Positions 25,624-63,182 of a DNA stretch of 64,000 nucleotides are shown one piece after another. The stretch is taken from NCBI GenBank assembly GCA_963931925.1, contig OZ007580.1, positions 4,534,629-4,598,628 on the forward strand, given 5' to 3'. The translations under genes and the position numbers were made by a program. The notes beneath the pieces are model-generated. The model was not told the origin of the DNA. It saw only the letters and a program-made list of their open reading frames with translations, and ran no database searches. Within the stretch, counting starts at the first letter, position 1; each line of letters begins with the position of its first letter. The stretch comes from Onchidella celtica (lineage: Eukaryota; Mollusca; Gastropoda; Systellommatophora; Onchidiidae).

Positions 25624-25641
25624 TCACTCTTCTGTGATACA
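25624..25641 (-). CDS. membrane gene A exon 4 (residues 117-121) with stop
   Basis: Acceptor attcttttcag, then CITEE and TGA. Copies B and C have CITQD and TAA at the equivalent site with the same acceptor. An 805 bp element is inserted 24 nt upstream of the acceptor side. Confidence 0.8.
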   Translation of the reverse strand, partial: CITEE

Positions 25642-28600
25642 CTGAAAAGAATGATAAACAGCATTTGTGAGGCACCCTAGGAGAACCAGTCATGATGCCA
25701 AAATTTCGCAGTTGGAGTTACTGGCACCACCATGCAGCAGAGGTTTTGCAGAGCATTTTGCTTTTTAAATGTTTGAAATATCTTCACTAGAACCAAAGTT
25801 ATGACATTTTAAAGATACAAAACACCCGGATGTTAGGCTACAAAATGAGAAAATCGCGTCTAAAGTTGACACATTTATTTTCATATATTTTGAGGTGTTT
25901 TTCGCACCAGGAAAGCGAAATAATGTCATTATTTGAGTTTATAATCATCCCAAAACTCAAATATTCAGTAGAGGTAAACATTTCAAGCAACCTGGGACCT
26001 TTTTTGCACAATGTCAAGTCAAAACAGATGTTTTGCTAGACCCAGCTCTATCCACAGACTAATAAAATACCCAGACTGGATGATCCCATTGTGTGACGTC
26101 ACAAAACAGAGAAAGGTCATGAACCATCCGCCACATTAGGTTTACGGTAACGACCGACGCTTCAGCATAGCTACAATTTTGAATGACACCATTTTGACGC
26201 GCCCACTGAACGCGGAAGTTTGGTTCCGCACCAAGAAATTAATACATGTACAACCAGTCTTGACAAATAAAAAGGAAATTTCTATTGCAGATAGAACGAG
26301 AATCGGAATTTCCCGAGTGGCGGCCATGTTGATTATACGGTCGCCGCTCGGGAAATTCCGTAAAAAAACGACACAGCCCGAAGCTCGTGTTTCCGGTCTG
26401 GTTAATTCATTAGTCTGGGCTCAGTACTAAGATTTTTGCAACTAGACGAGTTTTCTCAGGCAGCCTCACATTGGGTAAATAAGACTTAAAGGCTTAGGGT
26501 GTTTTCAAACGCCTCTAACGTAACTTTATCTCTGTGGGTAGGTGAACAAATCCACCTAATTCATTCACTAGCTGACCAGAGGAAGATAAATCTTGCTAAT
26601 TGTTATCTTTCTATCAAGCCTAAACAAGAGGCAAAGAATGAAATTTCAGATTATACTTGTCAAAAATGCGTTGTTTGTTTGTTTGTAGTTGTGTTTTTTT
26701 TTGTTTTTTTTTGCGGCTCAAAAACATTGTAAATAAATAAGATTAAAGACAACATTTTGTCTAAAATGGTCGTATCCACGTAATTTATCGTCAAAATGTG
26801 CGGCAGAACTCAAAGTGGATTTGAAAGGGCATGCGAGTTTCAAGGGCATTTTTTTTTTTTTTCTAATCATGTATGTCATTGTCAACTGTTCATTCATGAT
26901 GCGAGATCGCAACAGGTACAAGTTTAAGATACGCTTGAGTTGAATCCTTTACAGGCTGAGATTCCGGTTACATTTCGACTATCTCCTTTTATCCTTCCCT
27001 CTGCTCCCCTCATCTTAACCTCCAGCACTCCATCTCAGCTTCTACAGGCCTTCTCCATTGTGTGTCAAAATATCAAGCGGGTTCGGTGTGTAATTTGTAA
27101 GTATTACTAAAAAAAAAAAAAAAAAGAAAGTCGTATCTATAAAAGCTATAAGCATATGAAATATCAGTGATAAATATCTCACAAGTTGGGGGAAGGGAGG
27201 TCCTTGGGATTTTAAGAGGCCGAAACGAAGACTCACAAATGGAAGAATGTTCTGAATGTTAGGATTTATAGGAATCGACGTCGTCGTCAGCAAGGGCGGG
27301 GATGGAAGGCGATCCTGCAATGTCACTTGGTAACGCGTTTCTCTCATACTAAAAATGTCCTCCTTCTCCTTGTTTTCAAACTTTCCCCCCCGAGCATTTC
27401 TAACTCTACAAAGAAGCTGCTGCACCATAAGACATTACAGCAACTGGTCAGACACTGAGCTTTCTGGGAGCGAAAACTTCAGAAATTACGGTCTTTGCAT
27501 GTTTGTTTTGATAAGAATTGACAATAGCGATCAGTGGACATATTCGAATTCCACATTGAAACTATCCACTGGACTCATGAGCCCATTAGAATTGCACATA
27601 GAAATACCCAATGGACTCACACAATTTGCTTGAAGAAATATCCAGTGGACTCATATCAACGAGTCTATTAGGGTTACACATAGAAATACCCAATGGACTC
27701 ATACTATTTATTTGCTTGAAGAACTACCCAGTGGACTCATTATCCAATGGGCCCTTTAGAGCTGCGCACGGAGATACCCAATGGACTCATACTATTTGCA
27801 CACTATCCAGTGGACGTATTATCCAATGAGCCCCTTGGACTTACATACAGAAATACCCAATGGACCCATAAGATTTGCGTAGAGAACTATCCAGTGGACC
27901 CATTATCCAACGGAGTCTTCAGAATTACACATAAATATATCCAGAAAACTGTTTGGAATAGCACAGAAATATGGAATGGACTCATTATCCCAAGGCGACA
28001 TCAGAATTACACATAGACATAATATATCCAATGGAATCATTATCCAACGGACTGATTAGATACACACAGAAGTAACCAGTGAACTTATTGGAATAACACA
28101 GAAATATCCAACAGAATCATTGTCCAAGGGACTCATAAGAATTAGACAAGGAAAAATCCAGTGGACCCATTATCCATTATTCAGAAATCTCCAATGGACT
28201 CATCAGAATTTATACATATAAATATGCAATGGACATTGGAAATACACACAGAAATATCCAGCGGACTCATTTAACTTACACAGAAACATATCCAATGAAC
28301 TCATTAAAATTACATACAGACATCCCCGATGCACCTGTTAAAAATTACACAGACAAACATGCAATGAACATTGGAACTAACATACAAATATCTAATGGAC
28401 TCATTGAAATTACACCACAGACATATTGAATGGACTGATTATCCGAAGGACTCATTAACCCTGTAAGTGTCAATGTAAACTAATGCAGTGTCAAGATGTT
28501 CGTGTTGGCAGTGATGCTTCGTGATATTTCAACCATTTTCAAACTTTGATAACAAAAAAAATAAATAAAAAATGGATGTAGTTTCGCTTCGAAATGGAAG

Positions 28601-30887
28601 TTCAGAAGTTAGTTTCAGTAAATGAAAACATGGATTTTATGGTACGGGCGGGTTACACATCCATTTACGGTAACTGAAACAATCAGATCTGCCCAAGCAG
28701 TTAAAGAACCGCCTCTGGCTGATCTCATCAGCCTTCTGACACTTTTAATGTCAAAAGAACACACAGAAATACCCAAATGGACTTACCAGAATGATCCACA
28801 CTATAACCCATGGCCAGAAAAAGAGCGAGATAAGACAGTGGAGGGCGTGGTTAACCCCTCGCCTGGTAGGATGAGATACAACATTTGTTGTAGTCAGTGA
28901 ATACAATGGGTTCAGTTGTGATGTATATATTATATATCATGTATACGTTCATACACCTGAAGTCGGAGAAATAAGATTAAGATGATAACATTTTGACATA
29001 ATATTAATAATAATAGTAATAATAATTAGAAGAAGACTAATGATAGTTAAGTAAAATGTTAGAATACTGTATAAACAGCGATAATTTTAACAACAACAAC
29101 AACAACAACAACAACGACAAGAACAAAAATAAAAATAATAATGACAACAAATGTGCTACTGGTGAATTACCTTTCTACCACAATGGTGGTTGGTGCTACT
29201 GTCGGTGGTCCTCCAACTACCACAACATTATTGCTGGTTGACTGGGGACAAACAAAGTAGCACAATACACATTAGCTGGTGGACAGATACGTGCACTGAC
29301 AGGCTGATGTCACACGGATAAATGGAGCGACCGGGGGGGGGGGGGAGGGAATAGATGGATGGATGGATGGGTGGATGGGTGAATGGACGGATAGATAGAT
29401 CGGTGGGTGGAAAGATACATGGATGGATGGATGGGTGGGTGGATGGGTGAATGGACGGATGGATAGATCGGTGGGTGGAAAGATACATGGATGGATGGAC
29501 GGATGGATGGGTGGATGGGCGGATGGATGGATGGGTGTGTGAATGGACTGATGGATGAATAGGTGGATGGAAAGATGGGTGGATGTATGGATGGATGGGT
29601 GAATGGACGGAAGGATGGGTGGATGGGTGGATAAAAAGATGGGTGGATGGATGGATGGATGGAAACGGAGAGAATGAGTACAATATGTAAAAGAAGATTC
29701 AGATCAGTCCTCCGACTTCATAGTTCACATTGCATAGATTCTTCTTCTCCCCCCCCCCCCTCTCTCCCTTTTACTTCAAGACAAGTTTAACAGGACACTG
29801 ACAAATGGCCACATGTCCCACTTAAGGGGTGATACACACACCAAGGCTGGTGTAGGAGCCAGGCTGATGGCTCGCCGTCAATGAATTATGCATCACACTA
29901 ATACACCAGGCTTAACTTATAGGTGGCGAACCACCAGTCTGGCCCCTACACCAACCTTGGTCCGTTTCACCACCCCCCCCCCCCCAACAGCGCGTGTTCT
30001 ATTAGAAAGTAGCTGTTGCCGGCGATGTCTATTTTCAAGGTATTGTTCGTCTACATATCCATGCGACAATAGCAACAACACTTCGCCACCACCGTTACGG
30101 AGATCACTTTTCTCACCACCATCACTTGTATCACCACCATCAATACCATCAGTATCACCACCGCCATGACTACCGCCCCTACCACCACCGCCATCACCAC
30201 CATCAATACTACCACCACTACTATCATCACTACCGCTATCACCGCCACCCTCATCACCAGCACCACCATCACCATTACCACAATCAATACTACCATCACC
30301 ACTATTACCATTATCACCACCATCAATGCTACTACCACCACCACCATCACAACCATCAATACTGACCCCACCATTACCACCACCATCGTCTTCACCACCA
30401 CTAACATCACCACCACCATCATCACCGTCAAAACTGCCACCGCCATCACCATTACCACTACCAACACCATCATCACCAGTATCGTCTCCACCATCAATAC
30501 TACCACCACCATCACGCCCCCTTGCCATCACCACCACCATCGCTACCACCATCACCACCACCATCATCTTTATTATCATCACCATCACCACCACCACCGC
30601 CACCACAACTTCCATACCGTGTACAAAAACACGATCTAAAATCTAAACAACAAAAGAGAAGACACACAACACACACACAAAATTACCTGTTGTTGTTGGG
30701 AGAAGTTCTGACCAGGGGGAGGGTAGTATCCTCCAGGTGGGGGGCCGTAACCGTATCCTCCTTGAGGTGGGGGGTAACCGCCTTGAGGTGGAGGAAAGCC
30801 GCCCTGTTGTGGGGGGTAGCCCCCCTGAGGTGGAGGATAGCCGCCCTGTTGTGGACTGTATGGTGGTGGATTTCCTTTAGCGTCCAT
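25624..30887 (-). CDS. proline/glycine-rich PPPY single-pass membrane protein, copy A
   Basis: Four coding exons on the minus strand: 30687-30887, 29171-29241, 28787-28862, 25624-25641; 366 nt, 121 aa. All junctions are GT-AG and phase-consistent, and the same four exons occur in copies B and C, which is the main evidence. Residues 1-67 are PPPY (7-10) plus GGYPPPQ-type heptads, disordered and likely cytoplasmic; PPxY is a WW-domain ligand of NEDD4-type ligases. Residues 68-91 are Val-rich (NVVVVGGPP). Residues 94-99 read VNHALH, followed by a hydrophobic helix (about 98-117, with [12 protein letters not shown]). The end is CITEE. No signal peptide. BRI3- and LITAF-type proteins have similar proline-rich N-termini, but I cannot place it in either; function unknown. 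Confidence 0.8.
25666..26470. mobile_element. 805 bp TIR element in intron 3 of membrane gene A
   Basis: Termini TGTGAGGCACCCTAG and (reverse-complemented) TGTGAGGCTGCCTGA; AACCAGTC/AACTCGTC follow a few bases later. Segments B and C are continuous here (AGCATTTTGGGTAAAT). A stretch near 26190-26240 recurs inverted at 47030-47090 (CGGAACCAAACTTC). No coding capacity; superfamily unassigned. Confidence 0.65.
26471..27544. other. intron 3 of membrane gene A, conserved non-coding
   Basis: Aligns with 50200-51150 (inverted) and 57030-58150. Contains poly-T and poly-A runs. No exon-like segment seen. Confidence 0.55.
27545..28470. repeat. ~45-50 bp minisatellite, copy A
   Basis: Diverged units built around CCAATGGACTCAT, ATCCAGTGGAC and AATTACACATAGAAATA. 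The same satellite fills the equivalent intron in B (49480-50180, inverted) and C (58150-61460, split by two LTRs). Confidence 0.85.
28787..28862 (-). CDS. membrane gene A exon 3 (residues 91-116), transmembrane
   Basis: Acceptor catcctaccag, donor ATTCTG|gtaagt, 76 nt, the same size in all copies. Encodes [12 protein letters not shown] then [13 protein letters not shown]. Confidence 0.9.
28980..29145. repeat. AT-rich AAT/AAC microsatellite
   Basis: AATAATAAT and CAACAACAA runs between exons 3 and 2 of copy A; equivalents at 49085-49260 and 62900-63090. Confidence 0.75.
29171..29241 (-). CDS. membrane gene A exon 2 (residues 68-90)
   Basis: Acceptor tttgtccccag, donor GAAAG|gtaatt, 71 nt, leaves 2 nt for the next codon. 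Encodes [13 protein letters not shown] then APTTIVVE. Confidence 0.8.
29345..29665. repeat. GGAT/GGGT tetranucleotide array
   Basis: Tandem TGGA/TGGG tetranucleotides in intron 1 of membrane gene A. It creates a long minus-strand frame rich in HPS that is not a gene. Homologues: 48650-48905 and 63295-63545. Confidence 0.9.
30105..30605. repeat. (CAC/CAT)n trinucleotide array
   Basis: Trinucleotide tract in intron 1 of membrane gene A; open in several frames only because of its composition. Homologues: 48060-48250 and 63925-64000. Confidence 0.9.
30687..30887 (-). CDS. membrane gene A exon 1 coding part (residues 1-67)
   Basis: ATG at 30887; ends QQQQ|gtaatt, phase 0. A pyrimidine-rich acceptor (tttctgcccctag) at 30916-30918, also present upstream of copy B, implies a separate non-coding first exon further upstream and a 28 nt 5' UTR piece here. 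Confidence 0.85.
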
Positions 30888-30918
30888 CTCTTACCTGAAT
30901 GACCTTAATTGAGTACTA

Positions 30919-31440
30919 GGGGCAGAAAGAGAAAAAAGTATGTCAGAAATTTAAGACATTTTCAAATGTGCCTGTTGGTAGCGGACCTCAGTCTAGTTAC
31001 ATAGCTGGATAGAGAAAAAACAAAACAAAACAAAACTGGGTGTGTTCAGTGTTCATCTATACCTTACTATTAGTTCCTCAGCCGATTGACTGTAAGTTAC
31101 ACAGTTGGTTGCTTGGTTAATTTATTCCTCAGTTAGTTGCTTGGTTAGTTCTTCAGTTGGTTGGCTAGTTCATGTGACTGGTTAATCGCTGGGTTGATGT
31201 TTTGCCTGCTTGTCTTGTTTCTTGCGCAATTTTTGTTGCTGAACGATTTGGCTAGATGATAATATGGTATAAGTACCTGATAAACCCAGTCTTCAGTAAT
31301 CTGATAAAGCGATTTATGATAGGAAATAGACATTGTGTAATGAACGATAACTTCTTTTCTTCCCGGGAGAACTATTGCCGCCTTAAGTTTTTTTTTGACT
31401 TCCCAATTGAAATCACAACAATGTACAGTATTCGTTAAGT
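30919..31440. other. upstream region of membrane gene A
   Basis: Aligns inverted with 46676-47653. It likely holds the non-coding first exon and promoter; no TATA box assigned. TTGGTTGGCTAGTT-type repeats lie near 31100-31180. Confidence 0.5.
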
Positions 31441-31985
31441 CTAAAGGTTAGCTGGACTGAGAAATTTGCGTATCTCGATAATTTTGCTGCTAAAAATAAC
31501 TTGGATCAAGGTGTTGTTTACATCAAAGTGTATGCTGACGAACTTCCACAGCAAGTAGGGTGAAACGATTATGATTGGGGCTAGTTTAAAACGTACTTCC
31601 TGGACGATTGGCGAAACTTCTTAGAAAACGGCAAATTAGAATCAGTGAATCAGTAATTGTGATCTCAAGTCTTCGAATTTTTTCTATTGTCAGGGGAGCA
31701 GTCTGGCCTACCGCCGAGCTTATTAAAACATGCTTTCTTCGTTATCTTGGCTGGCATTATTACAGTAATGTAAACCGTGGGAATTTAATGCTGCACCGGA
31801 AAAATGCAGACAAAATACCGAAACATGACACGGGAGACGTTTCTCCAGAGGGCATTTCTTTCGCCAAATCGCGAAATTAGGCGGCTGAGTTAGCAAGAAT
31901 TGAAAGACACCGCCTCAGCCAAAGATAGTGTGCATGTCTGTTTACTGTGGTTTGTCCATATTTCTGGGCTGATTGATACTATTTA
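31441..31985. other. no gene recognised
   Basis: Single-copy-looking sequence between segment A and the Harbinger pair. Confidence 0.5.
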
Positions 31986-34326: not shown

Positions 34327-34349
34327 TTAGAGACGTTTGCAATCTCTCA

Positions 34350-34995: not shown

Positions 34996-34998
34996 TTA

Positions 34999-36942: not shown

Positions 36943-36965
36943 TTAAACGTTCATAATTATTTTTT

Positions 36966-37110
36966 TTGTGGGTGAACACGTTCGACCAGTGCCGAGAGCA
37001 GGGTACACCACAGTAAGAGCCAGACTTGAAAAATATAACCAAGTCTATGAACGCCTTTCCATACATGAGAAACTGTTATTTATTTGGATATTGTTTTTAA
37101 AGAAACATTT
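36966..37110. repeat. dispersed repeat, inverted relative to 46465-46630
   Basis: GTGAACACGTTCGACCAGTG, CCAGACTTGAAAAA and TTATTTATTTGGATATTG occur in the same order on the opposite strand at 46465-46630. Class unknown. Confidence 0.65.
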
Positions 37111-37119
37111 TGTGTTTGA

Positions 37120-37570: not shown

Positions 37571-37599
37571 ATAAGATAAGATTTGGTGTTGAAAGAAAA

Positions 37600-37905: not shown

Positions 37906-37974
37906 TAAACGCTTAATAATAAAGGACTTACTAGTATAAAAGTGAAATAACACTAATCAGCTCTGTATCCTGTG

Positions 37975-38205: not shown

Positions 38206-38210
38206 TACAC

Positions 38211-47680: not shown

Positions 47681-47980
47681 ATGGACGCTCAAGGAAATCC
47701 ACCACCATACAGTCCACAACAGGGCGGCTATCCTCCACCTCAGGGGGGCCAGCCCCCACCCCAGGCCGGCTATCCTCCACCTCAGGGGGGCCACCCCCCA
47801 CCCCAGACCGGCTATCCTCCTCCTCAAGGCGGTTACCCCCCACCTCAAGGCGGTTACGCCCCACCCCAGGCCGAGTACCCCCCACCTCAAGGCGATTACC
47901 CCCCACCTCAAGCAGGATACGGTTATGGCCCCCCACCTGGAGGATACTACACTCCCTCTGGTCAGAACACCCCCCAACAG
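47681..47980 (+). CDS. membrane gene B exon 1 coding part (residues 1-100)
   Basis: ATG at 47681; acceptor tttgctcctag at 47643-47653 marks a 27 nt 5' UTR piece. Ends CAACAG|gtaagt. Confidence 0.9.
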
Positions 47981-50900
47981 GTAAGTTTTTGGGTGTTGTG
48001 TTTCTGGTTTTTGTTAGCTAGGTCAGTTGTCAGCTGGAGGATAAGAAACCGTGCGTGTGTACACAATATGGAAGTAGTGGTGGCGGTGATGGTGGTGATG
48101 GTAGTACTGATGGTGGTAATGGTGGTTATGATGGTAGTGATGATGGTAGTGGTGGTAGTATCGATGGTGGTGATGGCGAGTGTGATACTGCTGGTATTGA
48201 TGGTGGTGATACATGTGATGATGGTGATACATGTGATGGTGGTGAGAAAGGTGATCTTCGTAATGGTGTTGTTGCTGTTGTCCCATGGATATGCAGACAA
48301 ACAAGACCTTGAAACTAGGCACTGCAGGCATCGGCTACGTTCTAATAGAACACGTGGTTGTTGGGGATGGAACAGACCAATTGAAACAGGCAATAAATGC
48401 CTAGTGTATTAGTGTGATGCATAATTCATGGATGGCGAGCTACCAGACTGGCTCCTACACCAGCCTTGGGGTGTTTCACACCTTACGTGAGACAATCGGC
48501 CATTTGCTCGTGTCGTGTTTTGTCTTGAAGTAAAGGGATGGGGGTAGGTGGACGATTTGGGGAGGGGGGAAAAGGAGAATCTATGCAATATGAACTATGG
48601 AGACCGAGGAATGGCCTGAATCTTCTATAATATAATGCACTCACTCTCTCCATTCGTCCATCCATCCACCCATCGCTTCACCCATCCTTCCATCCACCCA
48701 TCCCTTCACCCATCTATCCGCCCACCCATCATCCATCCACCCGTCCGTTCACCCACCCACCCATCCATCCATCCATCCATCTTTCCAACCATCTATCCAT
48801 CAATCCATCCACCCGATCCATACACCCATCTATTCACCCACCCACCCATCCGTCAATCCATCCATCAATCAATCCATCCATCTATTTTTTTCCTCTCCAC
48901 CTCCCCCTCTCTGTCGCTCCATTTATCCGTGTAACATCAGCCTGTCAGTGCATGTGTATGTCCATCAGTTGATGTGTAGTGTGCTACTTTCTGTGTCCTC
49001 CAGGATAGCACCAGTAATGCTGCGGCGGGCGGACAACAGGCAGCAGCACCAACCACCGTTGTGGTAAAAAAGTAATTGACCGTAGCACATTATTTGTTGT
49101 CATTATTATGTTTATTATTATTGTCGTTGTTGTTGTTGTTATCAAAATTACTGCTCTTTATACAATATTATAACATTTGGCTTTACTATCATTATTAATA
49201 ATAATAATATTATTATTAATGTTATTATAATGATGATGATTATTATCATTATATCAAAATCATAATTATTATTGTTACCATCTTAATCTCAATTCTCCGA
49301 CTTTGGATGTATGAAATAATATATATATCACAATTGAACCTGTTGCATCCACTGGCTACAATAAATGTTGTATCTGATCCTACCAGGCGAGGCGTTAACC
49401 ATATCCTCCACTGTATTATCACGTTCTTGTTCTTTCCATGGGTTATAGTGTGGATCATTCTGGTAAGTCCATGAGGTATTTCTTAGTGTTCTTTTAATGA
49501 GTCCTTCGGATAATGAGTTCACTGGATATGTCTGTGGTGTAATTTCAATGAGTCCATTAGATATTTCTATATTAGTTCCAATGTTCATTGCATGTTTGTG
49601 TGTGTAGTTTCTAATAGGTGCATTTGGCATTTCTATGTAATTTTAGTGAGTTCATTTGACATGTTTGTGTGTGATTTTAATGGGTCCACTGGATATTTCT
49701 GTGTGTATTTCCAATGTCCATTGAATATTTATTGGACTTTTCAGTGTGTAATTTTACTGACTCCGTTAGATATTTTTGAAGTCTAATGAGTTCTTTGGAT
49801 GATGAGTCCAATGGATTTTTCTGTCTTATTCATATTCTTCTTCTTCTTTCGTTCACCAATCTAAATCTGCAGATTTGTTCTTTTAATAAAATCTACGGTT
49901 TTCTGCAGTTCTGGCAGAGCACCATAGAGTTTGATATTCAGGTCGGTGGGTTGGGGCCAATATGTTTCTCGCAGTGCTGAGAGGAGTGTGCAGTTCTGCA
50001 ATATATGCTCCGTGTTTTTATTCATATGAGGCCTTTGGACAACGAGTCTATGGGATATTTCTGTGTATTTCAAATAAGTTCACTGGATACTTCTATGTGT
50101 AATTTTAACAAGACCGTTGGAGAACGATTCCATTGGATATATGTTTATATGTAATTCTAATGTGGCCTTTGGATAATGAGAAATTGAAATATTTGGTTGA
50201 AAAGTTTGAAGGAAAGGGGACATTTTTAGTATGAGAGAAGCAGTTTACCAAGTTACACGACAGTGTCGCCCTCCACTCCCACCCCTGCTGACGAGGTCGA
50301 TTCCGAGAAATATTAACATCCAGAATGTCAGTAAATCAGTCTTGGTTTCCTCTCCTTAGAATAAAAAGGTTCTAACTCCCTTCCCTCAACTTTTGAGATA
50401 TTGATGACTGAAGTTTCATGTGCTCATAGCTTTTAGAGATAGGACTCTTTTTTAGTAATACTTACACGGTACACACCCAGCCCACTTGATACTTTAACAC
50501 ACAGTAGAGACGGCCTGTAGAAGTTGAGATGGAGTGCTGGAGATTAGGAAGAGGGGACGAGAGGGAAAGAAAATGTGGCTGGAATCTCACCCAGAAAACT
50601 ATACAATCCAGGTGTATCATAAAATTGTACCTGACGCTATGTAGCATAATGAATGAAAAGTTGACAATGAAATACACGATTAGAAAAAATAATGCCCATG
50701 AAAGTCTCATGCCCTTTCAAGTCCACCTCTCAATTCCCTTCCCCTTGATACTCTAACGTAGCTAGAGGGTGAACATGTAAGAACCTAAGACTCACGGAGC
50801 ACCTGACCAAAAATTATGAAGCTTTGCGTTCTGCCACAGTTTTTGACGATAAATTAGGTCGACAGGTCCATTGTTGACAAAATGTAGTTTTTAATATTAT

Positions 50901-51193
50901 TTATTTATAATGTTTTTGAGCCTCATCGCCCCCCCCCCCTCCATTTTCGTATATGGAAATCGAAAAGTATAATCTGAAATTTCATTCTTTGCTTCTCTTT
51001 ATTCTTGATAGAACGATAAGAATTTAAAAGATTTATCTTGCTCTGGTCAGCTAGTGATCATGAATGACTTAAATGGATTTGTTTCACGTACCTCAGAGAT
51101 AAAGTTAAAGACGTTTGAAACGCCTTCAGGCTTTAGGCCATATTTACCAAAAATGTTCCTTATTATTCTTTTCAGTGTATCACACAAGATTAA
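47681..51193 (+). CDS. proline/glycine-rich PPPY single-pass membrane protein, copy B
   Basis: Exons 47681-47980, 49004-49071, 49387-49462, 51176-51193; 462 nt, 153 aa. Same four-exon plan and intron phases as copy A. Residues 1-100: PPPY at 7-10, then more GYPPPQ-type heptads than copy A (100 vs 67 residues). Residues 101-123 are Ala-rich where A has Val-rich sequence. Then [10 protein letters not shown]-like [10 protein letters not shown] and a helix ([13 protein letters not shown], about 130-148). C-terminus CITQD, TAA. The frame that stays open from 47681 to 48412 runs on into intron 1 and should not be used as the product. Role unknown; the PPPY motif suggests a WW-domain partner. Confidence 0.8.
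48060..48250. repeat. GGTGAT/GGTAGT trinucleotide-type array
   Basis: Intron 1 of membrane gene B; homologue of 30105-30605. Frames here are compositional. Confidence 0.85.
48650..48905. repeat. CCAT/CCAC tetranucleotide array
   Basis: Intron 1 of membrane gene B; inverted homologue of 29345-29665 and 63295-63545. Confidence 0.9.
49004..49071 (+). CDS. membrane gene B exon 2 (residues 101-122)
   Basis: Acceptor tgtcctccag, donor AAAAA|gtaatt. Encodes [12 protein letters not shown] then [10 protein letters not shown]. Confidence 0.8.
49387..49462 (+). CDS. membrane gene B exon 3 (residues 123-148), transmembrane
   Basis: Acceptor gatcctaccag, donor ATTCTG|gtaagt. Differs from copy C at one codon (Ile vs Cys after VNH). 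Confidence 0.9.
49480..50180. repeat. ~45-50 bp minisatellite, copy B
   Basis: Inverted homologue of 27545-28470; shorter, and interrupted by a LINE end at 49848-50030. Confidence 0.8.
49848..50030 (-). mobile_element. severely 5'-truncated LINE 3' end
   Basis: Minus strand reads [20 protein letters not shown] and then [17 protein letters not shown] with a stop near 49861, followed by a (GAA)n tail: the C-terminal end of the RNase H-type LINE also seen at 20730-21315. Absent from the matching minisatellite in A and C. Confidence 0.75.
51176..51193 (+). CDS. membrane gene B exon 4 (residues 149-153) with stop
   Basis: Acceptor tattcttttcag, CITQD, TAA. An AATAAA at 51572-51577, conserved in copy C, may be its polyadenylation signal. 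Confidence 0.8.
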   Translation, partial: CITQD

Positions 51194-52829
51194 TCCATCA
51201 GCCAGGATGTGACGCACCTTGACTGAAGAGTGCCAGGGGATGATTACTCTAAACTGACAAAGAGAAGAATGTGGGACTACAGTATCGAAACGTCTTCAGA
51301 TATTTTATTTTCTCAAGCAATGAATCGGTGGACTGTCGTGTCTTTAGTACCTTGACCTGCTAATTCAATGGGGAAAATACTGTATCGAAAAGTCTGGATA
51401 CCATTTCAAGATTATTTTTTTTAGTACAGACGAAATTTACTTCAAGAGGCATTAAATATCTTTATTCCAAGACAAATGATTAAATGTGTGATGATGATGA
51501 CACTTTGCAATGTTTTTCTCTTTGAGTAAAGTATAAAAAACACGAGCCTATTTCTCTGCAGTACACTGAATAATAAATCTACATAATCATAAACTGAAAA
51601 TACTCTGTTAGTCAATATTTAATACTCTGCGAGTCAGTATTTAAAATCATATAGGTCAGCTTTTTTAAATCATAAATTTTGTAAAGAGGCAGTTACGCCA
51701 GTACAGCTCTTTTGTTATCTCAGTAATATGAAGAGGAAATGTGAGGAAGGCACTTCTACCCGATAAATGTTAAATTCTCTTATCGAGGAACATCAAAGAT
51801 ACTAGATACAATAAGATGCGACAGCTGGCGCATCTAGATTTGCATTTCCAACACCGTTGGTAGGACACAGTAATTCTTTATTGACAGTAATGGGGTTAAT
51901 GGCAACTCACTGGAATATTCCAAAAAAGGCGAAAAATGAATAAACGTTCACAGGAAAACAAAAATTGCGCCAAATAAGATTTTTATACAGGATGTCTACT
52001 AAAAATGAAAGTTAGAGGGAACATTACTTGAATGCATTTTTGTCTTCGTTTTCTACCTGAGAAATGTGGAGCTTCCAGTGCATGGAATTTGCCACAGGTT
52101 CTTACATCAAAACCAAGCACGGTCTAATACACGAATGTAAACGTTTCATTACAGAAGACAATTACAAAGAACTAAAGGAAAAAGACATGGGTGATGTAAC
52201 ATCAGATTAAGAATGGTTTATTTGGCATTAAACTGCTTATCATTAAAATGTTTTTTTTAAGACAATAGAGCAAGTTGTTGACTTGATTCTGTGTGCATAG
52301 GTGTGCACATAACTTTGTATAGCTGGGTGCGAAAGTCTGGTAACACTCCGTTAGTTATGCGGGTTTTGTACGTGTGTTTTTGGTGTGATTGTGGTGCAGC
52401 TAGTCTGTGTCGAGACAGAGGGTATACCGAGACGAATCAACTCGCCAAATTCCATCCAAGGATTTGCACCCGTCAAAGATGGAACAATGCGCACCATACC
52501 CCTTTATAGCTGAACTAAAAACACCAGGACACACCTTATTAACACTATATACGCGCGCAATTTTGTGGACATTATAGAGGGAGAAGGATGGTTCGTCTCG
52601 GTATTGTGTCTCCGGTGGGTGTGGACTGTCCAGTATTGTAGGTGTAATGTGTGTGTGTTTCTATCTCTTCTATCTCTCAGCCCTGTTACATGTAAGTTCA
52701 ATGAGATTGTGTTTTCATTAACAGTCAAAGCAGGTCGTCAGTTCTTATTTTATAAAAGTGGGTCATTTCAAGACAAAATTAAAAAAAAAATTACTTGAGA
52801 TCATTCACGGGTGTAAACCGGCAACATTT

Positions 52830-53345
<516 letters not shown>

Positions 53346-53686
53346 CATTTTTAACTTTTTCTTTTAATTATTTTGTATGCTGATTAGTTTGCAATCTTTT
53401 TTTTTTTCTTAACCATAACGACCAGCAAAATGATCATTCTGCATGTAGTTCTTTTAGAGCATTTGAAGACAACAGAAATAACATTTGCCGTGTAACAGCT
53501 GAGAAAATTTAAGAATTTGGAAGCCAAAAGGGAGAAAAAGAAGAAAATGGTATTCTAGATACCCGATAGACAGAGATTTCGTATTTCAATTCTTCGATGT
53601 CCGCACAATGTTTGCATATTTAGTGTAGTTGTCCTGTGGGACAGACGCGGTCAAAAAAATTGTCTATAAGGCTGTTCAGTGTTTCC

Positions 53687-54571
53687 TCATACTACCTTTT
53701 TCATTTTAAGAAGAACCAAGGGTAGCCCATTGGTGTTAATATTAACTCCAGCAGATTCTTTTCATGCCGGTGGTGGTGGTGAGTCCCCCACCAGCAGGGG
53801 TGACAACTAATAGATAAAATACATAAAATTAAAAAAGCATAGATTTAGTCACCGCCCATACCATGGGACAGAAACCAAAATAAAGCTTAAAGAACATCTC
53901 AGCCACCCCTTGCCTCCCCTTCCATTGTAGGGAAGTCTGTCTCATCGCCCCCCCCCCCCTCTCTCACTATGCTACTGCGCCAGCCTATAAGAAACAAAAG
54001 AAAAGAAAAGAAAGAAACAGCCTAATGGGGAGCAGTTTGGGAAGCTGGAAAGAAAGAAAGAAAAAGGAAGAACAAGGCCAAAGCCAGGACAAAAGCAACC
54101 CTCTGGTGAGCCCTTTTCAGGGCTAAGAAAGCCAGAAAGACAACAGTAACAACAACAAAGAAACAAAACAACAACAACAGAAAAAAAAGCACAAACAAGA
54201 ACGAAAAAAAAGTGAGGTGTAAATGCCTAGAGCATCGATCCTAAAACAAAGACCTACAGCTCATTGATGATGATGGTGTGTGTGTGGGATAGAATGAATA
54301 AGGGGGGGGGGGTGGCATTAAAATTACAGGTATGATGGCCCTATCTCTATCTTAATTAGTTGACAAAGTGCACGAATGAAATATTTTACGATGATAACAT
54401 CAAAGTGATGGGAAAAACACACTGCCGTGGTCGTCTCTGCTGCAATACAAACAAGAATTCGGAGCTAAGTAAACGCATTCACTTAATATTCTATTTAGAA
54501 ACCCCACACTGAGTTGGAAATAAACAACCAGTAGACTTAAGTAAACAATAGAATTTAAAAAAAATTATTTT
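53687..54571. repeat. palindrome spacer holding a dispersed repeat
   Basis: The 885 bp between the two arms. 53760-54440 is a direct homologue of 18215-18870. Contains a poly-C run near 53948 and A-rich purine tracts. No gene. Confidence 0.75.
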
Positions 54572-54919
54572 AAACACTGAACAGCCTTATAGACAGTTTT
54601 TTTGACCGCGTCTGTCCCACAGGACAACTAAACTAAATATGCAAACATTGTGCGGACATCGAAGAATTGAAATACGAAATCTCTGTCTATCGGGTATCTA
54701 GAATACCATTTTCTTCTTTTTCTCCCTTTTGGCTTCCAAATTCTTAAATTTTCTCAGCTGTTACACGGCAAATGTTATTTCTGTTGTCTTCAAATGCTCT
54801 GAAAGAACCATATGCAGAATGATCATTTTGCTGGTGGTGAAGGTTTAGGATTTCTCTAAAAAAAAAAAAAAAGATAGCAAACTAATCAGCATACAAAATA
54901 ATTAAAAGAAACAGTTAAA

Positions 54920-55101
54920 GGTGGCTAAACAGACAGACAGACAGACTGATGGACAGACAGACGGACGGACAGACAGATAGAAAGAAAGACAGACAGATAG
55001 ATTGGATACATAGATCGGCAGACAGACAGACAGACAGACGGATAGATAAATAGATAGATAGATAGTCAGACAGATAGATAGACAGATAGATAGGTAGATA
55101 G

Positions 55102-55132
<31 letters not shown>

Positions 55133-55191
55133 GATAGATAGATTGACAAATAGAGAGATAAATAGATAGATAGATAGATAGATAGATAGAC

Positions 55192-55245
<54 letters not shown>

Positions 55246-55345
55246 GTAGGTAGATAGATTCTGTGTGTGTGTGTTTGAGAGAGAGAAAAAGAGTGAGAGA
55301 AAGAGAGTGAGAGAAAGAGAGAAGGAGAGAATGAGAGAAAGAGAG
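54920..55345. repeat. AGAC / AGAT / AG microsatellite, right arm
   Basis: Mirror of 52830-53345 but with a different mix: more GATA, fewer GACA units. Confidence 0.95.
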
Positions 55346-56997
55346 ATAATTCACAAATGTTGCCGGTTTACACCCGTGAATGATCTTAAGTAATTTTTTT
55401 TTTAATTTTGTCTGGAAATGACCCACTTTTATAAAATAAGAACTGACGACCGGCTTTGACTATTAATGAAAACACAATCTCATTGAACTTACATGTAACA
55501 GGGCTGAGAGATAGAAGAGATAGAAACACACACACATTACACCTACAATACTGGACAGTCCACACCCACCGGAGACACAATACCAAGACGAACCATCCTT
55601 CTCCCTCTATAATGTCCACAAAATTGCGCGCGTATATAGTGTTAATAAGGTGTGTCCTGGTGTTTTTAATTCAGCTATAAAGGGGTGTGGTGCGCATTGT
55701 TCCATCTTTGACGGGTGCAAATCCATGGATGGAATTTGGTGAGTTGATTTGTCTCGGTACCATCTGTCTCGACTCAGACTAGCTGCACCACAATCACACC
55801 AAAAACACACGTACAAAACCCGCATAACTAAAGGAGCGTTACCAGACTTTCGCACCCAGGTTATACAAAGTTAGGTGCACATCCATGCACACAGAATCAA
55901 GTCAACAACTTGCTCTATTGTCTTAAAAAATAACATTTTAATGATAAACAGTGTAATGCCAAATAAAGAATGCTTAATCTGATGTTACACCACCCATTTC
56001 TTTTTCCTTTAGTTCTTTGTAATCATCTTCTGTAATGAAACGTTTACTTTCGTGTATTAGACCGTGCTTCGTTTTGATGTAAGAATCTGTGGCAAATTCC
56101 ATGCACTGGAAGCTCCACATTTCTCAGGTAGAAAACGGAGACAAAAATGCACCCAAGTAATGTTCCCTCTAACTTTCATTTTTAGTAGTCATCCTGTATA
56201 AAAAATCTTATTTGGCGCAATTTTTATTTTCCTGTGAACATCAATTCATTTTTCGTCTTTTGGGGAATATTCCAGTGAGTTGCCATTAACCACATTACTG
56301 TCAAGAAAGAGCTATTGTGTCCTACCAACGGTGTTGGAACTGCAAGTCTAGATGCGCTAGCTGTCGCATCTTATTGTGTCTAGTATCTTTGATGTTCCTC
56401 GATAAGAGAATTTAACATTTATCGGGTAGAAGTGCCTTCCTCACATTTCCTCTTCATATTACTGAGATAACAAAAGAGCTGTACTGGCGTAACTGCCTCT
56501 TTACAAAACTTATGATTAAAAAAAGCTGACCTATGTGATTTTAAATACTGACTCGCAGAGTATTAAATATTGACTAACAGAGTATTTTCAGTTTATGATT
56601 ATGTAGATTTATTATTCAGTGTACTGCAGAGAAATAGGCTGGTGTTTTTTATACTTTACTCAAAGACAATAACATAATTGCAAAGTGTCATCATCATCAC
56701 ACATTTAATCATTTGTCTTGGAATAAAGATATTTAATGCCTCTTGAAGTAAATTTCGTCTGTACTAAAAAAAAAATAATCTTGAAATGGTACCCAGACTT
56801 TTAGATACAGTATTTTCGCCATTAAATTAGCAGAGTCAAGGTATGAAAGACACGACAGTCCACCGACTCATCGCTTGAGAAAATAAAATATCTGAAGACG
56901 TTTTGATGTTGTAGTCCCACATTCTTCTTTTTGTCAGTTTAGAGTAATCATCCCCCGGCACTCTTCAGTCAAGGTGCGTCATATCCTGGCTGATGGA

Positions 56998-57015
56998 TTA
57001 ATCTTGTGTGATACA
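56998..57015 (-). CDS. membrane gene C exon 4 with stop
   Basis: Acceptor tattcttttcag, CITQD, TAA; identical to copy B. Confidence 0.8.
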   Translation of the reverse strand, partial: CITQD

Positions 57016-60000
57016 CTGAAAAGAATAATAAGCAGCATTTTGGGTAAATATGGCCTAAAGCCTGAATGTGTTTCAAACGTCTTTAACTTTATGGTGCGTG
57101 AAACAAATCCATTTAATTCATTCATGATCACTAGCTGACCAGAGCAAGATAAATCTTGTAAATTCTTATCGTTCTATCAAGGATAAAGAGAATGAAATTT
57201 CAGATTATACTTTTCGATTTCTATATACGAAAATGGAGGGTGGAGGGGGGGGGGGGGGGGACGATGAGACTCAAAAACATTATAAATAAATAATATTAAA
57301 AACTACATTTTGTCCAAAAATGAACATGTCGACCTAATTTATCGTCAAAAACTGTGGCAGAACGCAAAGTTTCATAATTTTTGGTCAGGTGCTCCGTGAG
57401 TCTTAGGTTCTTACATGTTCACCCTCTAGCTACGTTAAAGTATCAAGGGGAAGGGAATTGAGAGGTGGACTTGAAAGGGCATGAGACTTTCATGGGCATT
57501 TTTTTTTCTAATCGTGTATTTCATTGTCAACTTTTCATTCATTATGCTACATCGCGACAGGTACAATTTTATGATACACCTGGATTGTATAGTTTTTTGG
57601 GTGAGATTCCAGCCACATTTTCTTTCCCTCTCGTCCCCTCTTCCTAATCTCCAGCACTCCATCTCAACCTCTACAGGCCGACTCCACTGTGTGTTAAAGT
57701 ATCAAGCGAGTTCGGTGTGTAATTTGAAAGTATTACTAAAAAAAAAAAAGTCCTATCTCTAAAAGCTACGAGCACATGAAACTTCAGTCATCAGTATCTC
57801 AAAAGTTGAGGGAAGGGAGTTAGAACTTTGTCATTCTAAGCTGACGAAACGAAGACTAATTTACTAATATTCGGATATTAGGATTTTTCGGAATCGACCT
57901 CGTCAGCAGGGGTGGGAGTGGAGAGCGACACTGTCATGTAACTTGGTAAACTGCTTCTCTCATACTAAAAATGTCCCCTTTCCTTCAAACTCCCCCCCCC
58001 CCCCCCCCAAATATTTCAATTTCTATAAAGAAGTTGGTACGCCACAAGATCCAACAGCAAAAATGCTCAGAAATTGAAATATTCTTGGAGCCAAAACTTT
58101 AAAACTTTAGAAATTACGGTCTTTGAACATTTGGTTTGGTAAGGACAGACAATGATGATCAGTGGACCAATTCGAATTCCATATAGAACTATCCGGTGGA
58201 CTCATGATCAAATGGGCCCATTAGGGTTACACACGGAAATACCTAATGGACTCTAATGTCATGATTCGAGTGTTATTAAAACTCACGCAGAGCGTGAGTG
58301 GTTTTTTTTCCAGGGCCATGAGAAATTGGCTGGTGGCCTTGAACGGTCCTCGCGAATTATAGTTGGTGAGTAAATAAATGTAAAGTTAAACTGTTAGGCT
58401 CACGCTTGTCGGTTTTAATGTTCGTGATTAATAAGTAATGGAGTAGGGGTGAAACAAGGTGGGGATAGTTGACATTGTTAAGTATGACTAGACAAGTTTT
58501 GCACGTTAACTGGCTGGTAGAATAGTGCAGAGGTATTACTACAATTAAAATGGTGGGAGGTTTCGGCCAATGAGATTGCTGAACTAATTGGGCCAGCGGA
58601 CTAGCACTGCTGGGTAGTTGGATAGTATAAAACATCGTGTAACGTTCAGATTCAGAGAGTACAGACGAGAAGCCAAGCATCGTTCCGTGAAGTATCTCCG
58701 GTTGGCCAGTACCTGAACTGTGTGCTTTGAAGACTAGAGTCCTTGCTAACGGACTGACTGAGCTCTAGAAAGAAAGGTCTGAGTGGGCTGACCTTTGAAA
58801 GCCCACGCTGCGCTATATTGATGTTCGCGCCTACCAGTAGGCGTGACCAATGGTAATATACCTTATTTTGTCAAGCATAATAGATCAGAGATAGAGAGAG
58901 AACCACAGCCTCATAGGAAGTCTAAGGAAACCCCAGCTGGCACTCGACGACGAGTGGCCTGTGTTATAGAATTATTTCCATAGTATGATTGAAGTAATAT
59001 GGCACATTGTTGATGAATTGAATAGTGATTGTGCAGAAATATATATATATATAGTCTTTTGCCACTGCTGAATTACCTACAAGCCGAAGTGTGCTTCTGT
59101 AGGCTTTGAACGTACTGGGCTCTCCTAACATTCAAGCCCATATGATTTATGGAGAGTTTGCCTGGCGACTGGCCAGTGGCGACTCAACTGTCACTTTAAA
59201 TTGATATCTAGTTTCGTATAATATACCTATTTGATATTGATTGCAGTACATCCAATAAGGAACCGTAGTTACATGAATATCATAGATTTAGTAATTAGAA
59301 TTTATTGCTTTGAATATACCTCTATTGTCTTTTGTTTTGTTTATTAATATTTATGTAACTAAAATATGGCCTGACCGGCCTGACATATATAGATAGTCTA
59401 GTTGTTTAATACTTTTCTTGTGTGGTTGTGTCCGAGTGTGAGTTAGCTGCCTCTCGTGCAGTCGAATGCTCCCCAAGACCCTAACTCTGCTCGTGACATC
59501 TAAGATTAGCATACAGAACTATCCAGTGGACTTATTATCCAATGAGCCAATTAGAGTTACACACAGAAATACCCAATGGTTTTATAGGATCTGCGCACAG
59601 GACTATCCAGTGGACCCACTATCCAACGGACTCCTCAGAATTACACACAAATATATCCAGAGAACATTTTGGAATTGCACTGTGTCAGGAACAGATTAGT
59701 ATCATAAATGCCGTGCTAGGTCACGACTTCAGTGAGTTAATTTTTACGATCTTGTTAATTATAACCAGCGTAATTTGTCCTTGAGCTGTTCTCGTGAACA
59801 GTTTGTTTTGAAACACTTTTTTCTTATAGATGGAGAGAAGGTGGGGCGAGACAGACTAAATGTATAACTAGGAATGACAGAGCAGTTCTCGACCCCGTGA
59901 TTTTGATTAACACAGAGAAGGGGCGAGTAAGGGTAGTTTTATTGAGACGCTTAGTTGGGGTTCAGAAATTCGTGCATAAGAGTAGAAGCACGGGGTTTAA

Positions 60001-63000
60001 AGATTTTAGTAGTTAATTTTTCAGTTTTTAAATTTTATTGTCTAGGTAAAATTGACCTTGATTTTGGCGCAAAGGCCGTGACGAGAATAAATTAATACTG
60101 CAGGCTGAGCCCGAGTGGCTGCACCAATCAGATGTAGGAATCTAGACGGAAGGTTGCAGATGTGACTTTAGTATTTAAACACGTACAGAACTTAGATAGT
60201 GGCCACATGTAGACCATCCATCTGCGAAGTGGACGGCCATAGTCCTCAGCCAGATGAGAGACACAGAGACGCAGTTAAGCAGTCCATGTTTTGAGGAGCG
60301 TTGTGTAGATTGAAGCTCCAGAGCCTAAGCATACTTGATTTGGCATATGAACCCACAGCGAGTATATCCAGCGCTCTCACTCTTAGTGAGGGCCGTATGG
60401 TGAGAGTCAATTACTAATTTGTCATAATGCAATTGAAACGTTCCAGCTACTTTGAAGACTGTTGAGGAGCTACCGCCAGACAACGCACTGGTGTACAAGC
60501 ATGTGTGATTGGGATTCTCCATGGCGTGTACTGAGGAACTTTAATATTATAACATGTCTCATTGGAAATAAGAAATAATAGAATTTAAATTGTATTATCC
60601 GACGCCACGTGCGCGGTTTCTTTTTTTTGGTATTTAAACTTCATATGAGCTGCAAATAATGAGATTAAGTTACCAGTATTATCGAAATTTTTAGTTCCAC
60701 AGCTTAGTTAGAAATTCAGTTGCCTTTGAATTGATATTTATATTTATATTTATCATTGTTACATACTGTAATTAAACTGCCCTACAGTTCTGCCGAAATT
60801 CAAATCAATTGATTTATTTAGTTTTTAGAATGAAAGTATTTTTTTTTGTGTGTTAGTCGATTGTGGGAGCGGACCTCGTAAGAGTGTAAGTCGAATTCCC
60901 CCTAAACCCACATCGCGACACACAGAAATATCGAAGGGACTCATTATCCAAAGGCCACATTAGAATTACACATAAACATATATCCAATTAAATCATTCTC
61001 CAACGGACTGATTAAAAGTACACATAGAAGTATCCAGTGAACTTATTTGATTAACACAGAAATATCCCATAGACTCGTTGTCCAAAGGACTCATATGAAT
61101 AAGACACAGAAAAATCCATTGGACTCATCATCCAAAGGACTCATTAGACTTCAGAAATATCTAACGGAGTCAGTAAAATTACACACAGAAAAGTCCAATA
61201 GACTCATCAGAATTTATACACATAAATATACAATGGATATTGGAAATACACACAGAAATATCCAGTGGACTCATTAAAATCACACACAAACATGTCAAAT
61301 GAACTCATTAAAATTAGATAGAAATGCCAAATGCACCTATTAGAAATTACACACCCAAACATGCAATGAACATTGGAACTAACATAGAAATATCTAATGG
61401 ACTCATTGAAATTACACCACAGACATATCCAGTGAACTCATTATCCGAAGGACTCATTAAAAGAACACTAAGAAATACCTCATGGACTTACCAGAATGAT
61501 CCACACTATAACCCATGGAAAGAACAAGAACGTGATAATACAGTGGAGGCAATGGTTAACGCCTCGCCTGGTAGGATCAGATACAACATTTATTGTAGCC
61601 AGTGAATGCAACAGGTTTAATTGTGATGTATATGTCACAGTGGGAATTAGAATCCAGGGGAATTTTGAATTCCACTAGTGGGGAATAGAATTCCAATCTG
61701 TCCTAGGGCAAATTAGAATTCTCATTTGCTCTGAATAAATCCAAGTGGAGAATGGAATTCTAATCTCTCCTAGGGTAGATTGGAATCCAAATTCTAGTTG
61801 AGATTAGAATCATGGTTTCAATTCACCAGTATTTTGTTTTATAAAAATTATTTTTATTTACTTATAAGATCATGCCTTACCAATCATTATGTGTGAAACA
61901 CAGAAAAACAGCTTTGAACATGGGCTTCAGTCTTTAAAAAATGGTAATAGACCACTAACTTTAGAAAAAAACTATTACAAGCATCTGGTGTATTGAGAAA
62001 AACGGTGTATTTTAAAAAATGTTAATAAAACATTAACTTTAGAATAAATTGTTATTTTTAAAATGTTAATGAACCACTAATTTGAGAAAAACTATTGTTT
62101 GTTTATGATACTTTAATGTCAATTATTTATTTTAAAATGTTAATAAACCTCTAACTTTAGAAAAAAAACTATTATTTTCAAAAAATGTTAATAAATCACC
62201 AACTTTAGAAAAACTATTGTTTGTTTATGATACTTAAATGTTAATTATTTGTGCAAGAACTACTGCCTGGGTGGCACTTTGTGCTACATAGAAATTCCTG
62301 CTTTGCGGCAACAACATCGTTTCATATTGCATGAGCTCTTGCATTCGCACATGGTTTTTCTCGATACACCGGATCGAGGCCCAGATGCTTGCCCGCCTGT
62401 TGCTTGGCGTGAAGCTTGAATGAGAGTTACTTCACATAGGTCCTTCACTGCTAAGTCGTTTAATTCAGGGAATTCCACGGATTTCATATCAACTAAGGCC
62501 ACTCATGTAAACCAGTTTTTAATCATCCCGGCTGTACTGTACAGTTTAAACATTTGGCAGTCTGGGTCTCGCAACTTCTTCTCCATTACTTTGCATGGCA
62601 GAAGACGTGCGTCAGTGTTTGTTCTATCGGTCACCAACAGAGTATGATGCTTGGGGTTCTTGAATTGAAACCATGATTCTAATCTCAACTAGAATTTGGA
62701 TTCCAATCTTCCCTAGGAGAGATTAGAATTCCATTCTCCACTTGGATTTATTCAGTGCAAATGAGAATTCTAATTTATCCTAGGAAAGATTGGAATTCTA
62801 ATCTCCACTAGTGGAATTCAAAAATCCCCTGGATTCTAATTCCCACTGTGACATATATATTACATGTATACTTTCATACATCCGAAGTCGGGGAATTGAG
62901 ATTAAGATGGTAACAATAATAATTATGATTTTGATATAATGATAATAATCATCATCATTATAATAACATTAATAATAATATTATTATAAATAATGATAGT

Positions 63001-63182
63001 AAAGCCAAATGTTATAATATTGTATAAACAGCAGTAATTTTGATAACAACAACAACGATAATAACAATAATAATAAACATAACATTGACAACAAATGTGC
63101 TACTGGTGAATTACTTTTCTACCACAACGATGGTTTGTACTGCTGGCTGTTGTCCGACTACCACAACATGACTGCTGCCATG
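56998..63182 (-). CDS. proline/glycine-rich membrane protein, copy C, 3' three exons
   Basis: Exons 63115-63182, 61492-61567, 56998-57015 on the minus strand; the first coding exon should lie beyond 64000. Exon 2 reads HGSSHVVVVGQQ then QTIVVVE; exon 3 KRGVNHCLHC and then [13 protein letters not shown]; exon 4 CITQD and TAA. Sites and phases equal those of A and B. Intron 2 holds a Ginger-like transposon and intron 3 two solo LTRs, yet all splice sites are intact. Confidence 0.75.
58257..59498 (+). mobile_element. solo LTR, 1242 bp (fossil)
   Basis: TGTCATGATTCGAG to GCTCGTGACA with 5 bp duplication TCTAA at 58252-58256 and 59499-59503. A TATAAAA lies near 58627, favouring plus orientation. 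No internal region. Absent at the matching place in segments A and B. Confidence 0.9.
59683..60920 (+). mobile_element. second solo LTR, 1238 bp (fossil)
   Basis: TGTCAGGAACAG to CACATCGCGACA; flanks CACTG (59678-59682) and CACAG (60921-60925). Segment A reads AGCACAGAAATA at the empty site, confirming the boundary. TATTTAAA near 60172 could be a promoter TATA. Sequence differs from the first LTR, though length and ends (TGTCA/GACA) are alike. Confidence 0.85.
61492..61567 (-). CDS. membrane gene C exon 3, transmembrane
   Basis: Acceptor gatcctaccag, donor ATTCTG|gtaagt, 76 nt. Two bases differ from copy B. Confidence 0.85.
61633..62853 (-). mobile_element. Ginger-like DNA transposon remnant, 1221 bp
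   Basis: Terminal inverted repeats of about 190 bp starting TGTCACAGTGGGAATTAGAA, with TATA on both sides (61629-61632, 62854-62857). TGTNR ends, long TIRs and a 4 bp duplication match Ginger transposons. The minus strand (62284-62688) reads VTDRTNTDARLLPCKVMEKK, then CECKSSCNMKRCCCRKAG, resembling the C-terminus of the integrase-like KRBA2-type proteins tied to Ginger elements. The integrase core is absent. Confidence 0.65.
62900..63090. repeat. AT-rich AAT/AAC microsatellite
   Basis: Homologue of 28980-29145 in segment A; between the Ginger-like element and exon 2 of copy C. Confidence 0.75.
63115..63182 (-). CDS. membrane gene C exon 2
   Basis: Acceptor tttgtcctcag, donor GAAAA|gtaatt, 68 nt. 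Differs from copy B at 14 positions, almost all changing the residue. Confidence 0.75.

Follow-up and report, generated by a model that had tools for sequence, protein, structure and literature searches.

A clustered four-exon gene family of Onchidella celtica that may encode membrane-anchored PPxY adaptors

We have found that a 64,000-nucleotide (nt) stretch of the genome of the gastropod Onchidella celtica (assembly GCA_963931925.1, contig OZ007580.1, here C14; the stretch is C14:4534629-4598628 and is called the window) holds part of a cluster of small four-exon genes that are presumably protein-coding genes of the animal host. Judged from sequence, the gene family is real, as its exons, phases and residues match between copies beyond what chance would give. 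We propose, at a probability of roughly one half, that its products are membrane-anchored adaptors whose PPxY motif would recruit WW-domain ubiquitin ligases, like LITAF in how they would work and yet not members of the LITAF family. The family is a eukaryotic one without a name, easily overlooked by annotation, and is tied to phage families of unassigned function through a short module for which we found no Pfam-A or NCBIfam entry.

The original prediction, made from the DNA letters and a list of open reading frames, had assembled three such genes. Copy 1 (minus strand, 121 amino acids (aa)) and copy 2 (plus strand, 153 aa) are as it reported, with the exact exon positions, in phase and with GT-AG introns. 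The same holds for exons 2-4 of copy 3; its exon 1 lies outside the window, some 4 kb further along the contig (C14:4602796-4602539, locus L016), and with it the four exons give an open frame of 139 aa. In window coordinates these genes consist of the following.

30687..30887, minus strand: copy 1 coding exon 1, 201 nt, 67 codons, GGYPPPQ-type heptads, donor CAG/gtaattt
29171..29241, minus strand: copy 1 exon 2, 71 nt
28787..28862, minus strand: copy 1 exon 3, 76 nt, NHxLHC membrane module (putative)
25624..25641, minus strand: copy 1 exon 4, coding part, 18 nt, CITEE-stop
25403..25669, minus strand: copy 1 terminal exon with conserved 3' untranslated region (3'UTR) and acceptor, similar to copies 2-4
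47681..47980, plus strand: copy 2 coding exon 1, 300 nt, 100 codons, PPPY and heptads
49004..49071, plus strand: copy 2 exon 2, 68 nt, NAAA in place of NVVVV
49387..49462, plus strand: copy 2 exon 3, 76 nt, NHxLHC membrane module (putative)
51176..51193, plus strand: copy 2 exon 4, coding part, 18 nt, CITQD-stop
51148..51409, plus strand: copy 2 terminal exon/3'UTR block, conserved with copy 1
63115..63182, minus strand: copy 3 exon 2, 68 nt
61492..61567, minus strand: copy 3 exon 3, 76 nt, NHxLHC membrane module (putative)
56998..57015, minus strand: copy 3 exon 4, coding part, CITQD-stop
56781..57040, minus strand: copy 3 terminal exon/3'UTR block, conserved with copy 1

The three copies first described are thus real, but three is too low a count. 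We searched the whole genome (1.14 Gb, 43 contigs), using as query first the last 54 aa of copy 1 and then a divergent exon 3; only the best candidates were scored, so the numbers of exon-3 copies are lower bounds. The first query gave at least nine matches at E<=10, namely seven copies of exon 3, exon 2 of copy 1 and a weak match on contig C6 (E=0.049) that we dismissed, its translation having no NHxLH. The second gave at least eight, the same seven copies of exon 3 and one match at E=0.86. All seven copies found are within about 190 kb of one another on C14 (4.563 to 4.753 Mb), and five have the four-exon structure. Four of these are complete and closely related, copies 1-3 being joined by copy 4, which neighbours them, has the same four exons and encodes 124 aa with the tail CIMDN. 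The fifth, p5, is a deeply diverged paralog that has kept the four-exon layout and shares with copies 1-4 exon order, phases, PPPY, NVVVVG, VER, VNHxLHC and PW..VW; its exon 4 is tentative, being the sole candidate from one restrictive pattern. Its exons are, in positions of C14:

4766399-4766139: p5 exon 1, MAEKEAQPPPY start, GYGPPA-type repeats
4760060-4759993: p5 exon 2
4752835-4752760: p5 exon 3
from 4748367: p5 candidate exon 4, giving CVC-stop

In the remaining two, p6 and p7, exon 3 is 76 nt long and has kept its two splice sites. We also note that tandem repeat DNA (loci L018 and L019; C14:4665957-4667518 and C14:4741972-4743102) adjoins this exon in the would-be intron 3 of p6 and p7, with open frames of 189 and 377 aa.

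Several features of the splice structure recur from copy to copy. GT-AG borders are found in 15 of the 15 introns of copies 1-4 and p5 (the last p5 intron being tentative), and exon 3 has the same borders and phase in all seven copies. Among copies 1-4 the exon lengths (201, 300, 258 and 216 nt for exon 1; 71, 68, 68 and 65 nt for exon 2; 76 nt for exon 3 and 18 nt for exon 4 throughout) differ only by multiples of three, whereas the aligned introns contain many gaps. The profile of PHROG 2697, a phage protein family, matches copy 1 in a single stretch, residues 12-52 of the 54 aa, that crosses both the exon 2/3 and the exon 3/4 joins. Exon 4 had been seen as an 18-nt exon that gene calling might skip, and its coding part is indeed 18 nt long; however, from exon 4 onwards copy 1 is 85-90% alike to copies 2-4, as against 45-55% over the 150 nt of intron 3 immediately upstream, and we therefore read it as the beginning of a terminal exon that continues into a conserved 3'UTR, and not as an isolated, fragile microexon.

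The proteins encoded by copies 1-4 and p5 have a single PPPY each, at residue 7 or 8, followed by a linker of repeats whose length differs between copies, and the PPPY is kept in all five even though the linker repeat of p5 has changed. The original prediction is upheld in its N-terminus of PPPY and heptads as well as in its hydrophobic helix at the C-terminus. The C-terminal module is preceded by K/R residues, has one hydrophobic stretch of about 20 residues with Pro-Trp in its middle, and is followed by at most three residues. In the five copies (with p5 exon 4 tentative) the best 19-residue mean hydropathy is 2.5-2.75, in a segment that ends at most three residues from the C-terminus, and the next non-overlapping hydrophobic stretch reaches 0.4-1.34, so that each protein has the single C-terminal segment of a tail-anchored protein. 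It is possible to see how such a protein might work. The PPPY would bind WW domains in ubiquitin ligases of the Nedd4/Itch type, the proline-rich arm would be flexible and cytosolic, and the NHxLHC module would hold the protein in the membrane, either in the manner of a tail anchor or by forming a shallow re-entrant hairpin that turns at Pro-Trp. An adaptor of this kind could bring a ubiquitin ligase to endomembranes and so cause membrane cargo to be sorted or degraded, as has been proposed for LITAF.

The same genome also encodes LITAF, a PPxY adaptor that is linked to disease and anchored differently, and this offers a natural comparison. Published accounts describe the binding of NEDD4 by the PPxY of LITAF and the insertion of LITAF in the membrane (PMC5142333, PMC5095921); in LITAF, zinc-binding cysteines flank a hydrophobic region that enters the membrane but does not cross it (PMC5095921, PMC5142333), and one of these accounts states that LITAF does not have the lumenal C-terminus of tail-anchored proteins (PMC5095921). 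As such accounts portray them, LITAF/SIMPLE and CDIP1 share with the present family a flexible proline-rich N-terminus with a PPxY and a C-terminal module with a hydrophobic stretch of about 20 residues. Unlike them, the proteins described here end at most three residues past that stretch. In the O. celtica genome, 19 exons match the LITAF domain (PF10601) at E<=0.001, and a gene on contig C2 that we read as LITAF has a PPPY exon and then GGYPPPQ heptads, TVVV and a zinc ribbon, so that its front half looks like that of the present family, although PPPY and heptads are on separate exons there and on one exon here. We note that LITAF-domain exons are clustered at C9:38.97-39.11 Mb and C2:28.08-28.12 Mb, apparently through an expansion of LITAF.

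We present evidence that the C-terminal module has relatives outside animals. The original prediction could not name the family, and as far as Pfam-A and NCBIfam were scanned this stands, with nothing above a curated cut-off in Pfam-A for copies 1, 2, 4, p5 and the last 53 aa of copy 3, or in NCBIfam for p5 and the copy 1 and copy 3 tails; the module itself, however, is recognisable in phage families of the PHROG collection. Literature searches for the family in animals returned nothing to the point among the papers listed. Copy 3 matches phrog_36892 (E=2.5e-8), phrog_34413 (7.5e-5) and phrog_2697 (1.3e-4), copy 1 matches families 2697 (E=1.5e-5) and 36892 (E=5.3e-5), and p5, taken without its exon 4, has matches to four families with E=6.5e-4 to 8.4e-4 (PHROG_36892 at 8.3e-4). 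As controls, the exact reverse of the copy 3 tail and a hand-scrambled tail, one residue off in composition, matched none of the PHROG families, and with a 40-aa variant of copy 1 in which N, both H and Pro were replaced the match fell to E=0.05. Both H and both W are present in all ten aligned rows (five from this genome, five from phages), and N in nine. The phage proteins of PHROG_36892, 2697 and 34413, whose function is unassigned, thus resemble the present family in having NHxLH and then a hydrophobic stretch with W...W, and differ from it in their length (51-106 aa in the five examined) and in having neither PPPY nor a proline-rich arm. When 50,697 phage records were searched by tblastn at E<=10, copy 1 matched 39 records, 35 of them Pseudomonas phages, and copy 3 matched 63, comprising 35 from Pseudomonas and 23 from Streptomyces phages among others, many of the records being near-identical.

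Further relatives came from nine IMG/VR loci (of 123 pattern matches) and five Flavobacterium-type genomes (of 32); across the Flavobacterium phylum there is a match in five of 148 genomes, and one of the five supplied a profile row. For profile comparisons we relied on an alignment, A7, of copies 1, 3, 4, p5, p6 and p7, with copy 2 excluded, because a first alignment, A2, held one phage row. Compared with the viral/Flavobacterium profile, this six-copy profile gave a probability of 97.8%, and with a viral form in which the module is flanked by CxxC pairs it gave 98.7%. The latter form is found in two viral-contig proteins (L037:1947-2153 and L041:1950-2561) that match no Pfam family above cut-off and have a CxxC pair before and after NHxLH, an arrangement known from LITAF; the L037 core, RRKGTNHILHLIISILFFPWIIIWI, is near-identical to that of copy 3, although both proteins differ from the present family in having CxxC on both sides of the module and no proline-rich arm. 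The model of L037 is poor (predicted local distance difference test score (pLDDT) 58.5) and we take it as a hint only. For a plain viral form, L042, a fold of helix, two strands, NHxLH helix and two strands is predicted (pLDDT 80.8, predicted template modelling score 0.37), and the two predicted strands on either side of the NHxLH helix would set it apart from the proteins described here. Another viral protein, which matches DUF2510 below threshold, has at its end a TVIV-xxR-xVNHxLH-hydrophobic tail as in this family. Other weak matches, to SGP (p5, E=0.25, sub-threshold), to DUF4234 (below cut-off, in one form each from a phage, a viral contig and Flavobacterium) and to BRI3 (one viral form, E=0.21), were not used.

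It is possible, at somewhat less than even odds, that NHxLH marks an uncatalogued membrane-insertion module that occurs across the domains of life, anchoring PPxY ubiquitin-ligase adaptors here and, in viruses and bacteria, lying between CxxC pairs, sitting in four-strand scaffolds or ending DUF2510-like proteins. Membrane insertion by NHxLH is a hypothesis that can be tested on the phage and the eukaryotic side alike. If this cross-domain reading is true, the genome would use two kinds of anchor, LITAF-type and NHxLH-type, for one and the same job, and the linker and tail of the young copies would be diversifying.

Comparison of the copies with one another bears on how far their proteins are constrained. 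When exon 3 of copies 1-4 is compared with that of p5-p7, silent sites are at or close to saturation, with a non-synonymous divergence of 0.24-0.44, and NHxLHC and PWxxVW are kept despite this saturation. Between copy 1 and p5, 12.0 of 15.7 synonymous and 12.0 of 59.3 non-synonymous sites have changed, the p5 differences are spread 9/4/11 over the codon positions, and second codon positions vary least in p5, p6 and p7 alike. In exon 1, the proportion of changed non-synonymous sites (pN) is below that of synonymous sites (pS) in six of six pairs.

A number of observations weigh against the adaptor reading, or against the gene models and the wider relationships that go with it. Directly 5' of the ATG in copies 1-3 stands a donor-like CAG/GTAAGAG which, if used, would mean a different start; it also counts against the 5' untranslated region intron that may lie ahead of coding exon 1, as suggested by a pyrimidine-rich stretch and AG shortly 5' of the ATG, which are seen in copies 1 and 2 and more faintly in p5. 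For p6 and p7, neither exon 1 nor exon 2 was recognised by pattern, by tblastn (the best candidate, at E=0.013, was on the wrong strand) or by comparison of p6 with p7. The P(S/T)AP motif of LITAF and CDIP1 occurs in none of the five full copies. The tblastn matches in phages are weak, the best being at E of about 0.1 for copy 1, among the matches listed, and 0.005 for copy 3, and at least one of those listed, in a Rhodococcus phage, is on the strand opposite to the annotated genes and probably due to chance. When viruses were scanned with the six-copy profile, none of 24 stretches was confirmed, and a plasmid search gave no match. Among solved structures, the copy 1 tail had no match, the prokaryotic profile had one at chance level (E=0.88), and the predicted L042 fold had none at E<=0.001.

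To these must be added that in exons 2 and 4 taken together non-synonymous change exceeds intron change in all three pairs among copies 2-4 (p=0.005, 0.021 and 0.002; the values are uncorrected and not independent, and the grouping was picked post hoc among seven exon groupings), so that constraint may be weak in some parts of the protein, or these parts may be diversifying. The intron tests cover pairs among copies 2-4, with pairs that include copy 1 left out, and the upstream flanks of exon 3 were dropped from the intron counts of pairs 2-3 and 3-4 because of an insertion there in copy 3. Against introns, the three pairs gave p=0.0005, 0.30 and 0.04 for exon 2 alone, 1.0, 0.014 and 0.004 for exon 4 alone, and 0.14, 0.12 and 0.011 for exons 2-4; with all exons pooled there was no excess at p<0.05 (0.82, 0.39 and 0.053), and no direct test for more non-synonymous than synonymous change reached p<0.05 (lowest 0.087). 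The contrast is sharpest between copies 3 and 4, which are identical at 149 of 149 aligned bases immediately 5' of exon 4 and differ at 6 of 18 bases within it, TQD in copy 3 being MDN in copy 4 with the stop kept, a contrast that may reflect diversification or conversion from another copy. The flank in question is the following.

copy 4 L017 and L030, compared with copy 3 at window 56998-57164: identical intron flank of copies 3 and 4

Four other explanations deserve consideration. As a Pfam family, LITAF can be rejected: PF10601 scores 13.2 bits on copy 2 (E=0.11) against a cut-off of 23.8 and does not match copies 1, 4, p5 or the last 53 aa of copy 3, and hhalign gave a probability of 1.3% (0.9-5.1% in other runs) against five LITAF domains of this genome, which were taken from the 19 exon matches and a further exon (L028) by joining neighbouring exons by hand and trimming the joins by eye. 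The genes might nevertheless be a derived LITAF that has lost both zinc half-knuckles, the NHxLHC helix being the LITAF membrane helix. The similar N-terminus in the LITAF gene of C2, the sub-threshold match of copy 2 and the occurrence of the same helix between CxxC pairs in two viral forms would all fit such an origin, but we consider it unlikely, given that the LITAF profile comparison falls so far below the 97.8-98.7% obtained with viral and bacterial modules, that PPPY and heptads are divided between exons in the LITAF gene, and that CxxC is found on both sides of the module in no copy (there is none in copies 1, 2, 4 and p5, and in copy 3 one CLHC inside the motif). We read the relation to LITAF as a likeness of working principle and not as membership. 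Human CYSTM1 is, like the present proteins, proline-rich, and the genes could encode a CYSTM1-like membrane protein of stress responses or the secretory pathway in which the tail and not the PPPY does the work and the repeats are a spacer. CYSTM proteins, of which there are human (CYSTM1), plant and yeast examples, are described as small, tail-anchored membrane proteins (PMC10217909), a gross layout that the present family shares, and the number of repeats in exon 1 does vary; however, the tail is not cysteine-rich, Pfam CYSTM gives no match at E<=10 (the HMMER filters drop most matches above about 0.1), and PPPY persists in all five full copies despite the altered p5 linker, so that we regard this as quite unlikely.

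The remaining two explanations concern where the module came from and whether the young copies are still in use. Horizontal transfer of the C-terminal module out of a phage or bacterium, with fusion to a eukaryotic proline-rich arm, would agree with the observation that the relatives found outside this genome are prokaryotic or viral and with the patchy occurrence of the module in bacteria, as in the Flavobacterium phylum. Yet the space searched was almost wholly prokaryotic and hence biased, and since the borders and phase of exon 3 are shared by all seven copies, which are deeply diverged within the genome, any transfer would have to be old; we think it improbable. That copies 1-4 are decaying or neutral duplicates, with p5 alone functional, might be suggested by the rate of change in exons 2 and 4 and by the loss of NVVVV from exon 2 of copy 2. 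We find this very unlikely, as the four frames and 12 introns of copies 1-4 are intact, pN is below pS in every exon 1 pair, and no direct test for an excess of non-synonymous change reached p<0.05. An adaptor held in the membrane by its NHxLHC module is the reading that we prefer.

Lastly, the window contains other features. A search with Rfam gave no match anywhere in it. Copies 2 and 3 lie in a large inverted duplication, the longest arms of which are 515 nt with 94% complementarity, and there are remains of mobile elements. The reverse transcriptase fragment probably comes from a non-LTR (long terminal repeat) element.

48216..63972: large inverted duplication, arms holding copies 2 and 3 with their 3' ends face to face
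5550-7684, minus strand: hAT-type transposase pieces in separate frames, comprising the hAT dimerisation region and a C17orf113-type zinc finger, with a DUF4371 match below its cut-off
22500-23558, minus strand: reverse transcriptase fragment, RVT_1 E=2.4e-20

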